The notes beneath the pieces are model-generated. The model was not told where the DNA came from. It saw only the letters and a list, made by a program, of their open reading frames with translations, and did no database searches. The translations under genes were made by a program, and so were the position numbers. Below, piece by piece: positions 3,336 to 20,783 of a stretch of 63,944 nt of DNA (positions within the stretch are counted from its first letter, which is position 1; every line of letters begins with the position of its first letter). The DNA comes from a virus, in IMG/VR virus record IMGVR_UViG_3300028800_000099, positions 1-63,944 of that record. One strand, written 5' to 3'.

Positions 3336-3556
3336 GGCTTCACCCGCCGGCGCCAGCCCTTGGTCGCGTGGTAGCCGTATTCATAGGTGCGGCCGTTGTC
3401 GCCGTCGATGTCCTTCTCGGCGATCAGGCGTCGGTTGAAGGTGCCCTTCCGCAGAGCGCGGCGGACCGTCGTGGTTTCGCCCGTCTCTTCGTTCTCGATC
3501 GTCGTCGGTCGGGCGTTGGCCCAGACCTCCGACGCGATGTCTGTTGGTATTTGCAT
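3332..3556 (-). CDS. Hypothetical protein (74 aa)
   Basis: Starts MQIPTDIASEVWANARPTTI two bases downstream of the preceding TAG. The body alternates charged strands (ETGETTTVRRALRKGTFNRR) and ends in a basic tail with an aromatic YEYGYHATKGWRRR. The pattern is compatible with a small beta-rich phage protein. Not recognised. Confidence 0.7.
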   Translation of the reverse strand: MQIPTDIASEVWANARPTTIENEETGETTTVRRALRKGTFNRRLIAEKDIDGDNGRTYEYGYHATKGWRRRVKP

Positions 3557-14117: not shown

Positions 14118-14305
14118 TGGCGTGGGAATCTCCGGACGAGATTGCATTGAAGGCTTGGGCTGGCGAGATCGCCAAGAGACGTGCGCTTCTTAACGACGAA
14201 GAGCGAGGGGCCTTCGACCTAGTCGCCAACGCCTACCCCCAGGATGAGTCCAATTTGCGCCTTTCGCTGTATCAACTGGCGGCAATCCTAGGGGATAAGA
14301 CCTGA
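14117..14305 (+). CDS. Small helical protein (62 aa)
   Basis: MAWESPDEIALKAWAGEIAK begins an acidic helical protein. The ATG overlaps the previous stop (TGATG), and its own TGA overlaps the portal ATG in the same way. Not recognised. Confidence 0.7.
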   Translation: MAWESPDEIALKAWAGEIAKRRALLNDEERGAFDLVANAYPQDESNLRLSLYQLAAILGDKT

Positions 14306-16143
14306 TGGCGCGCTCTCCCGCCGCCCAAGCCCAGCGCCGATACGAGACGGCCGCGCCTGACGATCCCTACTATCAATCCGCGTCCCCCACGCTGCTGGCG
14401 GGAATGCCCGCTGATCCTGAGGAGACGAAGCCCAATTCCCAGATCACGAAGGAATGGGCCACGCTGTTCAACCACTGTGAGAACCGGCTGCAGGCGCTCT
14501 ACACGTGGCGGGTTCCTTGGTGGACGACGTCAGGGCAGATCGCCCGGTATCTGCGGCCGAACCGCTGGTACGCCTTCATCGTCGGCAACATGTACAACCA
14601 GGGCCTTCGCCAAGACTTCGCCATCGTTGACCGGACGGGCACCTTGGCGGGCGAGGTCTGCGCCGCCGGCCTGATGGCTGGGCTGACGGACCCGGACCGC
14701 CGCTGGCTGACGCTCGGCCCCGCGATCCCTGACTTCGAACTCGATCAGGCTGGCCAGCAATGGTACGAGGATGTCACGGAGCGCTACAACTACGTGCTGA
14801 CGCACTCGAACTTCTACGACGCCCAGGCGCAGCACTACGACGATCTGGTGTTCTTCGGGACGGCTCCGGTCATCGATTACGAGAGCGCTGACACGATCAT
14901 CAACGTGCGGACCCCATGCTCGGGCGAGTACATGCTCGGGACCGGCTTCGATTTCTCCGACGAGGTCCTGTACGAGGAGTTCCGCTTGACGGTCAGTCAG
15001 GTGGTCGAGGGCTACGGGATTGAGAACTGCCCTGAGAACATCCTGCGCATGTGGCGCCAGAAGGGCGGCGCACTGCAATCCGAAGTCGTGATCGGTCACG
15101 CGATCGAGCCAAACTTCGCGATCGACGGTGAGGGCGGATCGGTCGGCAAGATTCCCGGCGGCTTCACGTGGCGCGAGGTGTTCTGGGTCCGTGGGCAGAA
15201 GAATGCCAAGCCACTCTCGCTCGCCGGCTTCCATGAGCAGCCGTTCGCGGTCTCCCGCTGGAACGTGCAGGGGAACGAAGCCTACGGCCGCGGCGTCGGC
15301 GAGAACATGCTGGGCGACGTGATCCAGCTCCAACTCGAAACGCGCCAGAAGGCCGAATCGATCGAGAAGGTGAACCGTCCCCCGATGGGCGCCGACGTCT
15401 CGCTGATGAACCTGCCGTCGTCGACCAATCCTGGGAAAATCACATACTTCAACACGGGCGCGAACGGAGAGAAGAAGTTCTTCCCGCTCTACGAGGTGAA
15501 GCCGGACATCCCGGCGATCACGGCGGACATCAAGCTCATTCAGGAGCGGATCGAGAAGACCGCCTACGTCGATGTCATGCAGCCGATGGCGGATCTGCGC
15601 GACCAGACACATGGCCAGGTCACGGCGACGGAAATCGACGCGATCAAGCAAGAGCGCCTGCTTCCCCTGGGTCCGGTGTTCGGCCGCGTCTACGGAGCGC
15701 TGCGCCTTCGGGTGAAGCGTCACCTCGCGATTATGGCTCGGCGCGGTCTGTTGCCGCCGAAGCCCGCGTCGCTCCAGGGCGTCCCGACGAAGATCGACTT
15801 CATCAGCATGCTCACGGCGGCACAGCGGGCGACGAGCACGGCGGCGATTGCCCGGAGCGCTCAGTTCCTCGGCTCGCTGTCCGGTGCGTGGCCTGAGGCT
15901 CGGTTGCTGCTGGATGTCGAGAAGGCTGGACGGCAGTTCAACGACGGCGTCGGCGCTCCTCCGGGAATCATGGTGTCGGCGCAGCAGTTCAAGAAGGCGC
16001 TCGCGGCCGAGCGGCAACAGCAGCAGGCTCAGCAGGCTCTCGCTCAGACTGCGGCCGGCGCGACCGCTGCGGCCGGACTCGCGAAGACCTCGCTCGCGCC
16101 GGGGAACGCCCTGAGCGCGCTGGTCGGTGGACAACCCGGATGA
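14305..16143 (+). CDS. Portal protein (head-to-tail connecting protein)
   Basis: The 612-residue protein has the hallmark phrases of the head-to-tail connector family: HCENRLQALYTWRVPWWTTS near the N-terminus, GLMAGLTDPDRRWLTL, the IEKVNRPPMGADV region and a helical C-terminus ending in a Gln/Ala-rich tail (AERQQQQAQQALAQTAAGAT). It forms the dodecameric ring at one capsid vertex through which TerL pumps DNA. The length is typical for podovirus portals. Confidence 0.93.
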   Translation: MARSPAAQAQRRYETAAPDDPYYQSASPTLLAGMPADPEETKPNSQITKEWATLFNHCENRLQALYTWRVPWWTTSGQIARYLRPNRWYAFIVGNMYNQGLRQDFAIVDRTGTLAGEVCAAGLMAGLTDPDRRWLTLGPAIPDFELDQAGQQWYEDVTERYNYVLTHSNFYDAQAQHYDDLVFFGTAPVIDYESADTIINVRTPCSGEYMLGTGFDFSDEVLYEEFRLTVSQVVEGYGIENCPENILRMWRQKGGALQSEVVIGHAIEPNFAIDGEGGSVGKIPGGFTWREVFWVRGQKNAKPLSLAGFHEQPFAVSRWNVQGNEAYGRGVGENMLGDVIQLQLETRQKAESIEKVNRPPMGADVSLMNLPSSTNPGKITYFNTGANGEKKFFPLYEVKPDIPAITADIKLIQERIEKTAYVDVMQPMADLRDQTHGQVTATEIDAIKQERLLPLGPVFGRVYGALRLRVKRHLAIMARRGLLPPKPASLQGVPTKIDFISMLTAAQRATSTAAIARSAQFLGSLSGAWPEARLLLDVEKAGRQFNDGVGAPPGIMVSAQQFKKALAAERQQQQAQQALAQTAAGATAAAGLAKTSLAPGNALSALVGGQPG

Positions 16144-17729: not shown

Positions 17730-17766
17730 TGGGGTAGAACGAGATGCGCCGCGTCAGCGACGTTGC

Positions 17767-17821
17767 GGAGGGGAGAAGTCGGTTCCTCGGCCTCGACAAC
17801 TAGGGTTCGGCCCTCCCCTCC
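17767..17821 (+). ncRNA. Candidate compact structured RNA element (three-way junction)
   Basis: GGAGGGG (17767-17773) pairs with CCCCTCC (17815-17821) as seven GC-rich pairs. Inside lie GTCG...CGAC and AGGG-TTCGG-CCCT hairpins. It looks superficially tRNA-like but is too short (55 bases) and lacks an anticodon arm. It sits in the 125-base gap before 17855. Confidence 0.35.
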
Positions 17822-17854
17822 GATCCACCAGAAGCAGCAGCAGAGAAGCACCCC

Positions 17855-18142
17855 ATGTTCACCCTCAAACTCTATCGCGTCCCCAATGGCCAATTGGTCA
17901 CGCGCGTCCAAGCCGTCCACCATGTCCAGACGATGGAAATCGGTAAGTCAGGCCGCATCATCGAAGTGTGGGCTTTCCACGGTCCTGAGCCATCCACCTA
18001 CGACGCCTATTTCATCGGCGAGAAGGAAGACGGCATGGACGCCCTCAACGACGACAACCACTTCCACTGGGCTCTCCTTGAGAACTCAGATGGCAACACG
18101 ACCGAGCACTTTCGTCCTGCCGGCTACGGTCGCCCAAGATAG
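17855..18142 (+). CDS. Hypothetical protein (95 aa)
   Basis: MFTLKLYRVPNGQLVTRVQA starts a mixed beta/alpha protein with many aromatic and His residues toward the end (NHFHWALLEN). It is flanked on both sides by non-coding DNA with strong RNA-hairpin potential. Not recognised. Confidence 0.65.
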   Translation: MFTLKLYRVPNGQLVTRVQAVHHVQTMEIGKSGRIIEVWAFHGPEPSTYDAYFIGEKEDGMDALNDDNHFHWALLENSDGNTTEHFRPAGYGRPR

Positions 18143-18310
18143 TTCAAGTTTCGCCGCAAGGCGTCCGATGGTGGTGGGGTTCAATTCCCCCTCGCTGGCC
18201 GAGATCAGGTGAGAAGTAGGGTTCGAATCCCCGCGCCGGAGCAATCCGGAGGCGATCTTGCCGGGAGTGGTGTTCCGGGGCCTGACAGTCGGGAAAGACC
18301 GACACCCTAT
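18143..18310 (+). ncRNA. Candidate structured RNA with T-loops and GNRA tetraloops
   Basis: Six perfect hairpins follow one another between two genes: CGCC-GCAA-GGCG (18152-18163), GGGG-TTCAATT-CCCC (18176-18190), CTCG-CTGGC-CGAG (18191-18203), GGG-TTCGAAT-CCC (18219-18231), CCGGA-GCAA-TCCGG (18236-18249) and GTCGG-GAAAGA-CCGAC (18288-18303). Two loops are exact seven-base tRNA T-loop sequences and two are GNRA. No complete tRNA cloverleaf could be drawn: acceptor strands do not match and no seven-base anticodon loop fits. No U-tract follows. Confidence 0.55.
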
Positions 18311-18352
18311 CCTTTAAGCGGAACCATTCAGAGCGCTGGCCGTTCCGCCTAC

Positions 18353-18523
18353 ATGCTCGGCACCATCCTCATCATCGTCCTGATCTTGGCTCTGTTAGGC
18401 TCGTTCCCAACGTGGCCACATTCGGCCGGATGGGGTTATGGGCCGAGCGGCCTAGTCGGATTGATTCTCGTGATTGTCGTGCTGTGGCTGCTGTTCGGCA
18501 GCGGACACCGCATCGTCCTGTAG
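18353..18523 (+). CDS. DUF3309-family small membrane protein (56 aa)
   Basis: The product starts MLGTILIIVLILALLGSFPT, continues WPHSAGWGYGPSG and ends in a second membrane helix (LVGLILVIVVLWLLFG). This is the full DUF3309 pattern, two membrane segments joined by a conserved WPHS..WGYGPSG loop. DUF3309 proteins are frequent in bacterial genomes, have no known role and are unusual in phages. A host origin is plausible. Confidence 0.85.
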   Translation: MLGTILIIVLILALLGSFPTWPHSAGWGYGPSGLVGLILVIVVLWLLFGSGHRIVL

Positions 18524-18952: not shown

Positions 18953-19720
18953 ATGGCTGGAGAAGACCTTTCCTCGGCGGCGGCTGCGCCCGCATCACCT
19001 GAGCCCGCTGCCCCTGTGGCGGAAACGGCTCCGGCGCCCGTTGAAGCCGCTGCTCCTGCTGAAACCCTCCTTGAAGGTGCTCCTGAGGCGGCTGCGGTCG
19101 CTGAACCGGCCGCCGAACCTGCGGCCGAGCCGGAAGCTCCCGCCGAGCCCGAAGCGGCTCCCATCGCCGAACCCGCTGCCGAACCCGCTCCGGAAGCCGC
19201 GGCGCCCGAGGCCGAGAAGCCCCCGGCTGAAGCCGCCGCCCCCGTCTACGAAGACTTCACCCTGCCCGAAGGCTTCCAAGCCGCGCCGGAACAGATCGCC
19301 GAGTTCACTGGTCTCCTGACTGAAGCCAAGCTGGACCAGGAAACCGGCCAGAAGTTCATGGACCTCCACGCCAAGTCGCTCCAAGCGGCCGTGGAGCAAA
19401 TGTCCCAACGCCAAGTGGACACCTTCGAACAGACGCGCTCCGGCTGGCGCACCGATGCGGACACGCGCTTCGGCAACCGCCGCGACACCATCATCAACGA
19501 CGCGAAGTTCGCGATCACCCAACTCGTCCCCGATGCGAAGGCGCAGAAGGAACTGTGGGGCGTCCTGGGTTTCACCGGGGCCGGCGATCATCCGGCGCTC
19601 ATCTCGGCCTTCGCCGCTGCGGCCCCCCGTCTGCGCGAACGTCCCGCCCCTCCGGGTGGCCTGCCCAATACCGGCGCGAAGCTGAATCCCGCCGAACGCC
19701 GCTACGGCCCCAAGCAATAA
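18953..19720 (+). CDS. Putative capsid scaffolding protein
   Basis: The 255-residue protein has an extremely Ala/Glu/Pro-rich N-terminal 100 residues, then a charged helical region (EFTGLLTEAKLDQETGQKFM, DLHAKSLQAAVEQMSQRQVD) and a short C-terminal conserved end (LNPAERRYGPKQ). Composition, size and place directly before the major capsid gene fit an internal scaffold. It would guide prohead assembly and leave before DNA packaging. No protease motif is seen. Confidence 0.75.
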   Translation: MAGEDLSSAAAAPASPEPAAPVAETAPAPVEAAAPAETLLEGAPEAAAVAEPAAEPAAEPEAPAEPEAAPIAEPAAEPAPEAAAPEAEKPPAEAAAPVYEDFTLPEGFQAAPEQIAEFTGLLTEAKLDQETGQKFMDLHAKSLQAAVEQMSQRQVDTFEQTRSGWRTDADTRFGNRRDTIINDAKFAITQLVPDAKAQKELWGVLGFTGAGDHPALISAFAAAAPRLRERPAPPGGLPNTGAKLNPAERRYGPKQ

Positions 19721-19736
19721 CGTGAGGATCTGACCC

Positions 19737-20783
19737 ATGGCGACCGGCGCCCCCTTCACTCTCATGGACTTGGCTCGCAGAACCGACCCGAACGGCGATG
19801 CTGCCGACGTCGCGGAACTGCTCAGCCAGGCCAACGAGATCTATGACGACCTCGTCTGGAAAGAGGGCAACACCAACACCGGCCACGTCTTCACGGTTCG
19901 GACCTCGATCCCCGCTGGCTGGTGGCGCTACATCAACCAGGGCGTCCCGATGTCCAAGTCGACGACCGCCCAGGGCCGCATCAACTGCGGCATGCTGGAA
20001 GACAACTTCACCGTCGACCGCAAGCTGATGGAGATGGCGGAAGACCAGAACAAGTTCCGCTACGAAGAAGACAACGCCCACCTCGAAGGCATGTCCCAAA
20101 CCGTCGCCGGACAGTTCATCTACGGCAACGTCGCCAACAACCCGGCGTCCTTCACCGGCTTCGAAGCCTTCTACAACACCGTCAACACCTCCACCGCCGA
20201 CAACGCCTCGAACGTGTTCGACGGCGGCGGCACGGGCGGCAACAACACCTCCCTGATCATGATCGGCTGGTCGCCGCGCTCGATCTACGGCGTGTTCCCC
20301 AAGGGCTCGAAGGCGGGTCTGACGCTCGAACCCCTGGACTACACCCAGGTCGCCTACGACTCGGTCGGCAACCCGTATCGCGCGGCCATGACCTGGTTCA
20401 AGCAGGAAGCCGGCTTCTGCATCGAGGACTGGCGCTGGGGCGTTCGCCTCGCCAACCTCGACGTCACCTCGGCCGGTCTCGGCGGCACCAACCCCTTCGA
20501 CATCTTCGCCACCCTGTCCAAGATGGTCCTGCGGCTGCCCAAGGCCGGACGCACGATCTCCGGCATCACCGAAACCGACGCCAAGTCCGAGATGGGCATG
20601 GTCGTCCGGCCGGCGATCTACGCCAACCGCACCCTGCGCGGCTTCATGGACATCCAGGCGATCCGCGACAAGAACGTCCTGCTGAGCCCGAAAGACTACG
20701 CCGGACAGCCGATCGAGAATTACCGCGGCGTGCCCGTGCGGATTCTGGACCAGCTCAAGAACACCGAAACCCGCGTCGTCTAA
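19737..20783 (+). CDS. Major capsid protein (BPP-1 Bbp17-like)
   Basis: This 348-residue protein follows the scaffold gene and starts MATGAPFTLMDLARRTDPNG. Features typical of the group include the long N-terminal region, the EDNAHLEGMSQTVAGQFIYG segment, DWRWGVRLANLD and the C-terminal PVRILDQLKNTETRVV. Strong, uniform GC-rich codon choice suggests high expression. A HK97-type fold is expected from the family, not visible directly. It is followed by a cement-like gene. Confidence 0.88.
   Translation: MATGAPFTLMDLARRTDPNGDAADVAELLSQANEIYDDLVWKEGNTNTGHVFTVRTSIPAGWWRYINQGVPMSKSTTAQGRINCGMLEDNFTVDRKLMEMAEDQNKFRYEEDNAHLEGMSQTVAGQFIYGNVANNPASFTGFEAFYNTVNTSTADNASNVFDGGGTGGNNTSLIMIGWSPRSIYGVFPKGSKAGLTLEPLDYTQVAYDSVGNPYRAAMTWFKQEAGFCIEDWRWGVRLANLDVTSAGLGGTNPFDIFATLSKMVLRLPKAGRTISGITETDAKSEMGMVVRPAIYANRTLRGFMDIQAIRDKNVLLSPKDYAGQPIENYRGVPVRILDQLKNTETRVV

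Follow-up and report, generated by a model that had tools for sequence, protein, structure and literature searches.

The locus and its genomic context

The window, that is the whole stretch of DNA analyzed, is a virus record of 63,944 bases whose portal (14305-16143), protease (18953-19720) and major capsid (19737-20783) genes resemble those of BPP-1-type podoviruses. It also encodes a ROS/MUCR-type regulator, which suggests an alphaproteobacterial host for the phage. The RNA element described here lies on the coding strand, in the gap between a small plus-strand gene of 95 amino acids (17855-18142; weak PHROG 16842 match, no function assigned) and a plus-strand DUF3309 gene of 56 amino acids (18353-18523; PF11752, E 1.2e-20). 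An inverted repeat, GGAGGGGAGAAG..CTAGGGTTCGGCCCTCCCCTCC, occurs upstream of the 95-amino acid gene (17760-17825).

A similarity search with the gap DNA against phage records gave no match, and none of the records syntenic with the flanking genes carries the element. In L051, the closest phage, both the 95-amino acid gene and the DUF3309 gene are missing at the corresponding place, and 40 records of syntenic or capsid relatives gave no good match to the element, two of them showing weak matches of 17-27 bits. The slot that follows homologues of the 95-amino acid gene holds a tRNA-Gly in L021 and L022 and a permuted tmRNA in L026, so that tRNA-like cargo recurs at this position among relatives. 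The former is an odd tRNA-Gly(TCC), located at 3351-3424 in both records; the latter (L026:3289-3663, in a phage contig) is of the alphaproteobacterial type, scores 102 bits, lies directly 3' of the gene homologue and carries the tag ANDNQLVGQELRLSA according to ARAGORN.

A sequence-only reading of the gap had proposed six consecutive perfect hairpins, and all six were found between 18152 and 18303, the two with GNRA (GCAA) loops included: CGCC-GCAA-GGCG (18152-18163), GGGG-TTCAATT-CCCC (inside 18175-18191), CTCG-CTGGC-CGAG (18191-18203), GGG-TTCGAAT-CCC (inside 18217-18233), CCGGA-GCAA-TCCGG (18236-18249) and GTCGG-GAAAGA-CCGAC (18288-18303). As a conserved unit the series did not hold: its first and last members occur in subsets of the relatives only, a further hairpin, P4 (CCGGGA-GTGGTG-TTCCGG, 18261-18278), had been overlooked, and so had a possible pairing of GGCC at 18197-18200 with GGCC at 18279-18282, likely a pseudoknot. 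The folding energy of the gap is ordinary (z -0.52, with 58/200 shuffles folding as well), its count of short hairpins is mildly high (5 versus a mean of ~2.7), and the comparative structure without the pseudoknot amounts to -35.6 kcal/mol versus -65.5 kcal/mol for the minimum free energy fold. Three T-loop hairpins (stem of at least 3) occur on the plus strand of the 64-kb window, two of which are separated by 42 nt; none of 200 shuffled windows had such a pair at a distance of 80 nt or less. From the window alone, these two close T-arms are the only part of the gap unexplained by chance. As judged from sequence comparison, the decisive evidence for the element is its conservation across phages.

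Recruitment of relatives and architecture of the RNA

Relatives were sought in IMG/VR, in GTDB genome contigs and in annotated phage and plasmid records. Viral contigs were first scanned for any closely spaced pair of T-arms, which recovered more than 100 loci; among 125 T-arm pairs the first arm was that of an ordinary tRNA in about 80 and not in 44, and among these L169, L172, L192, L216 and L218 have the linker of the window, TCGYTGGCCGAG. The recruiting pattern, consisting only of the first T-loop and this linker, returned 59 viral and 12 genome stretches (64 distinct sequences including the window), to which a relaxed pattern, model searches and BLAST added L133, L168, L328, L331-L333 and the phages Touem01 and RpAliso. 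About 70 distinct relatives are thus at hand, in phages and prophages of Pseudomonadota and Bacteroidota. Pattern recruitment and capped searches bias the family toward near relatives of the pattern, and two matches, L289 (apparently within a 361-amino acid reading frame) and L329, were treated as false.

The comparison gives good support to a conserved phage RNA family of about 130-150 bases, predicted to span approximately 18169-18304 of the plus strand in the window. Its shared order is T-arm 1 (T1), a capped stem TCG-YTGGC-CGA (A1), a D-loop-like GG stretch (D1), T-arm 2 (T2), an optional hairpin P3, P4 and GGCC. In a core alignment of 51 sequences 97.0% of the cells are paired, versus 76.3% in shuffles and at most 57% with slid partners, and the covariation score is 0.506 versus 0.102. 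The check on related phages that had been proposed along with the hairpins came out positive, with compensatory changes in the T-arms, P4 and the pseudoknot helix P1.

In the stem of T1 (18175-18191, loop TTCAATT) three pairs change on both sides, one pair being GC in 22, CG in 16, AU in nine and UA in four of the 51 sequences. The T1 loop and its innermost two G-C pairs belong to the search pattern, as does TCGYTGGCCGAG of A1 to the first pattern, so that the invariance of the T1 loop and of A1 proves nothing. A1 itself (18191-18203, CTCG-CTGGC-CGAG) is a capped acceptor-like stem whose two core pairs hardly vary; with the relaxed pattern, a compensatory U-A to A-U change (ACG..CGT) was found in L328 and L331. 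The GGCC of its loop (18197-18200) would be the 5' strand of P1. D1 (ATCAGGTGAGAAG, 18204-18216) lies outside the first pattern, and its GG (18208-18209) is invariant in at least 90% of the 51 sequences.

T2 (18217-18233, loop TTCGAAT) also lies outside the recruiting pattern, and all five of its pairs covary, with 96.9% of the cells paired in the 51-sequence alignment; the stem of the window has one A-C mismatch. The T2 loop of L242 and L243 reads GGCAGTA/GGCAGGA, as in the alpha-tmRNA T-loop of L026, and this use of two alternative T-loop sequences at one position provides good evidence of selection on the T-loop fold itself. Directly 3' of T2, hairpin P3 (18236-18249, CCGGA-GCAA-TCCGG) is optional and often GNRA-capped, having different stems in most long members and being missing from a short class (L169, L230-L232, L252, L262, L272, L274). 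The D-arm-like P4, with its GGT loop, was not used for recruitment; all five of its pairs change on both sides and 100% of its cells are paired in 18 full-length members, which together with T2 gives covariation at all ten base pairs. GGCC borders directly on a hairpin of 5 bp or more in 82% of 55 members versus 15% in shuffles, and GGT occurs in 36 of 59 assigned P4 loops versus about 16 expected.

The terminal GGCC (18279-18282, plus strand) is the 3' strand of P1, a likely pseudoknot with the A1 loop. P1 is mostly invariant, with paired changes to GGCU/AGCC in L332 and to UGACC/GGUCA in L133 and RpAliso; a possible UGCU/AGCA in L168 is weak and comes from a wide search window.

Two flanking hairpins on the same strand are accessory. 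P0 (18152-18163), upstream of T1, belongs to a minority type, GNRA hairpins of at least 4 bp within 55 nt of T1 being present in 11 of 62 members versus 3% of control stretches, with stems that differ between several members (GCGC-GAAA-GCGC, GCCC-GCAA-GGGC). P5 (18288-18303) forms part of a motif, GGCCTGRCAGYCGGGAAAGACCGRCA, that ends L228, L256, L276, L278, L281, L285 and L328. It was rejected as a core part, since the motif is found also in phages without T-arms. The hairpin motif TGACAGCCGGGAAAGACCGGCA occurs without T-arms in intergenic gaps of many unrelated phages (L345, L346 and L347, ~1501-1523 in each; mEp390, P7641, Pokken and others; 66 records matched the query), and is possibly a mobile RNA module; mEp390 and P7641 also have a common upstream block, GGAAGAGTTACCACTTGGAGAC.

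Comparison with tRNA, tmRNA and other tRNA-like RNAs

That no standard tRNA can be folded from the gap was confirmed: ARAGORN reported neither tRNA nor tmRNA, the tRNA covariance model RF00005 gave no match even at E<=10, and Rfam 15 gave no credible match, including in a search with the isolated 201 bases. An anticodon arm and a CCA end were sought in 18150-18310; the loops are of 4-7 nt, none of them fits an anticodon arm, and there is no CCA. The element is similar to tRNA in its T-arms and in D1, which resembles the start of the tRNA-Ser D-arm, TGGCCGAG, but it has neither an anticodon arm nor an open acceptor, and its order is permuted.

Two origins had been offered from the sequence alone, a decayed tRNA pair and an undescribed phage structured RNA using T-loop motifs. 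The second agrees with the T-loops, the covariation, the spread and the lack of an Rfam 15 family. The first, or a recombination scar, would account for two T-arms and the tRNA-Ser-like TGGCCGAG, an origin from fused tRNAs being conceivable, and model R1 also matches adjacent ordinary tRNAs in bacterial genomes (27-39 bits). Decay, however, would not keep a two-T-arm layout by compensatory changes in about 70 phages, and the covarying helices, the fixed order and the lack of a tRNA model match rule this candidate out, leaving it with practically no probability. As little weight is given to an attP site carrying the 3' end of host tRNA genes. Sites of this kind often copy tRNA T-arms, but here a conserved non-tRNA linker separates the two arms, the T-stems vary by compensation rather than matching a host tRNA, and no integrase was recognized by Pfam among the 80 larger ORFs of the window (the PHROG list covering the first 25 of 54 families).

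Permuted two-piece tmRNA (RF01849, RF04321) likewise places a T-arm before the 5' strand of the acceptor, has a stemless D-loop with GG, and shares the GGCAGTA T-loop variant with T2 of L242. The element differs in having no CCA end and no tag reading frame, a capped stem and a second T-arm, and it agrees with none of the tmRNA models (RF00023, RF01849, RF04321) in a search that did detect the permuted tmRNAs of L026 and RpAliso. Viral tRNA-like structures of the TYMV type set a T-arm beside a pseudoknotted acceptor-like stem, as in the element, which in contrast comes from a DNA phage, lacks a 3' CCA and has two T-arms. Other T-arm arrangements were also encountered. In L111, L142 and L199 an apparent tmRNA 3' end (TCCACCA) has a further T-arm no more than 10 nt downstream, together with a conserved tail, ACCGTATGC..GGACACCC..ACTTGCG. 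A second double-T-arm class (L108, L113, L114, L136, L225) has GGTGAATATC repeats before the arms, and four of its members score 25-33 bits with model R1.

The tRNA-like domain of the bacterial Y RNA YrlA (RF02553; PDB 6CU1) has the order T-arm, capped acceptor-like stem and D-arm, with a TTCRANY T-loop, GG in the D-loop and no anticodon, all of which the element shares. Beside the Ro60 gene of L296 YrlA reads GCGGGTTCGAATCCCGC - CGGGCA-GCGA-TGCCCG - TAGCTCAGTCGGAAGAGC, and likewise in L292; the phage RNA has this module order twice, as T1 - TCG-YTGGC-CGA - GATCnGGTGA and then as T2 - P3 - P4, with GG in most P4 loops. As a structural analogy, judged at the level of sequence, the element is a permuted tRNA mimic. 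It differs from YrlA in having two tandem modules and a pseudoknot that joins its first cap to the 3' end.

A true Y RNA that binds host Ro60/Rsr and PNPase would explain the permuted order found next to Ro60 genes, and two carrier genomes do encode Ro60 elsewhere. This is nevertheless quite improbable, for RF02553 gave no match in the window at E<=10 and none over the cut-off in 17 records (the control YrlA next to Ro60 in L296 scoring 48.4 bits, itself below the cut-off of 69), no TROVE (Ro60/Rsr) protein was found in 47 phage records or in the window, and no RtcB in 42 phages. The long 5'-3' basal stem to which Ro60 binds was not seen in the window or in most members. A possible basal stem occurs only in L238, L240, L261 and L277 (AGGTGTGCC/GGCACACCT in L238 and L261), which have T1 and the linker without T2 and are perhaps intermediate toward Y RNA. 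In RpAliso, a stretch of 0.8 kb (L343:1995-2783) contains a permuted tmRNA (129.5 bits) and two YrlA-like RNAs beside the double T-arm RNA, all of them unannotated; the YrlA-like RNAs, which would also speak for a Y RNA, are sub-threshold (42.3 and 34.7 bits) and lie 0.5-0.7 kb downstream of the double T-arm RNA.

Distribution among phages and proposed role

Cultured carriers of the element are Pseudomonas phage Touem01 and Ruegeria phage RpAliso, and the named hosts of the genome matches are Paraburkholderia, Pararobbsia, Variovorax, Sphingopyxis, Rhodobacteraceae, a Hyphomicrobiales MAG and Chitinophaga. Each carrier has one copy (45/45 records). A sample of 398 genomes of one bacterial phylum contained a single strong match (64.6 bits), in the Sphingopyxis genome G050, an already known carrier; the other matches span 88-118 nt, score no more than 39.4 bits and, by this length and score, resemble pairs of adjacent tRNAs. 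With one true member in this sample the element appears phage-associated, and an origin in the host chromosome was rejected. No element was found in the plasmid records scanned. In 28 of 42 carriers there is no tRNA match, which argues against debris of a tRNA cluster.

Flanking-gene families, based on mechanical gene calls, are heterogeneous: terminase, HNH, ParB-like and methyltransferase genes recur, and no single partner gene shared among the neighbours of the carriers was found. The similar size, the loop-mediated pseudoknot and the frequent proximity of terminase genes recall the phi29 pRNA and would suit a structural role in the virion or packaging motor. Such a role is very improbable, however, since the closest relatives sharing these capsid and portal genes do not have the element, and its occurrence across unrelated phages is patchy. 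In Touem01 the gap that contains the element is unannotated, and a terminator follows GGCC directly. Under a strict test, terminators follow 5 of 61 members, versus 0-4 of about 57 in controls, and no obvious one follows the element in the window, so that a discrete transcript, which we infer, would not be a general rule.

T-arms with a stacked stem are the minimal form recognized by RNase P. The element could thus act in cis within the surrounding phage transcript, its tRNA-like fold either attracting RNases of tRNA processing (RNase P, RNase E) or protecting the mRNA, so that the late message is cut, stabilized or paced. Its position on the coding strand between genes of the window and the terminase, HNH and methyltransferase genes often found next to it in other carriers fit this reading. 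It is rather unlikely all the same, for the neighbours vary widely without a common downstream gene, a terminator directly follows the RNA in Touem01 and several others, and no cleavage site was identified, nor is the 3' end of the capped stem free.

Action in trans is favored because the element is single-copy, patchy and without a fixed neighbour, and because a terminator comes at once after the RNA in Touem01 and some others. The analysis provides the sequence, the secondary structure by covariation, the spread, the single copy and the phage association; with a probability of about one half, the element imitates the tRNA elbow twice and acts in trans by binding a host factor that handles tRNAs, both partner and function being presumptive. 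It would be a noncoding phage RNA made of two permuted tRNA-like modules in tandem, the first comprising T-arm 1, the short capped stem and the stemless D-loop with GG, and the second T-arm 2, the capped hairpin P3 and the D-arm-like hairpin P4 with GG. The molecule would be closed by the pseudoknot, in which the first cap pairs with the 3' GGCC. The two T-loops are each predicted to dock on a GG in the fashion of the tRNA elbow, and the RNA would therefore present two elbows, with no anticodon and no free acceptor end. During infection it would most probably occupy a host factor with affinity for tRNA elbows. It could then be a decoy or competitor of a tRNA-acting nuclease or defence protein; alternatively, it could serve as a tether, as PNPase is tethered by Y RNA. 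The likeliest targets would be host proteins that grip tRNA elbows, although any particular partner is a guess.

Phages are known to carry tRNAs and tmRNAs, and some phages of Actinobacteria carry Ro60 proteins. No RNA family with the layout of the element was found in Rfam 15 or in the open-access papers searched, which does not prove its absence from the literature. Phage tRNAs are reported to rescue infection from tRNA-cutting defences (PMC11555353), and the tRNA-like domain of YrlA has been proposed to inhibit an anticodon nuclease by competition (PMC7790460). We tentatively suggest that the element may represent an unnamed, widespread class of phage RNA, a double elbow mimic acting in trans, as decoy or adaptor, against a host defence protein that handles or cleaves tRNA, that is, counter-defence by a noncoding RNA. 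Touem01 and RpAliso are cultured, which makes the element testable. A single-copy tRNA mimic whose structure is conserved across about 70 unrelated phages, the majority showing no tRNA gene, points to a host target common to many bacteria.
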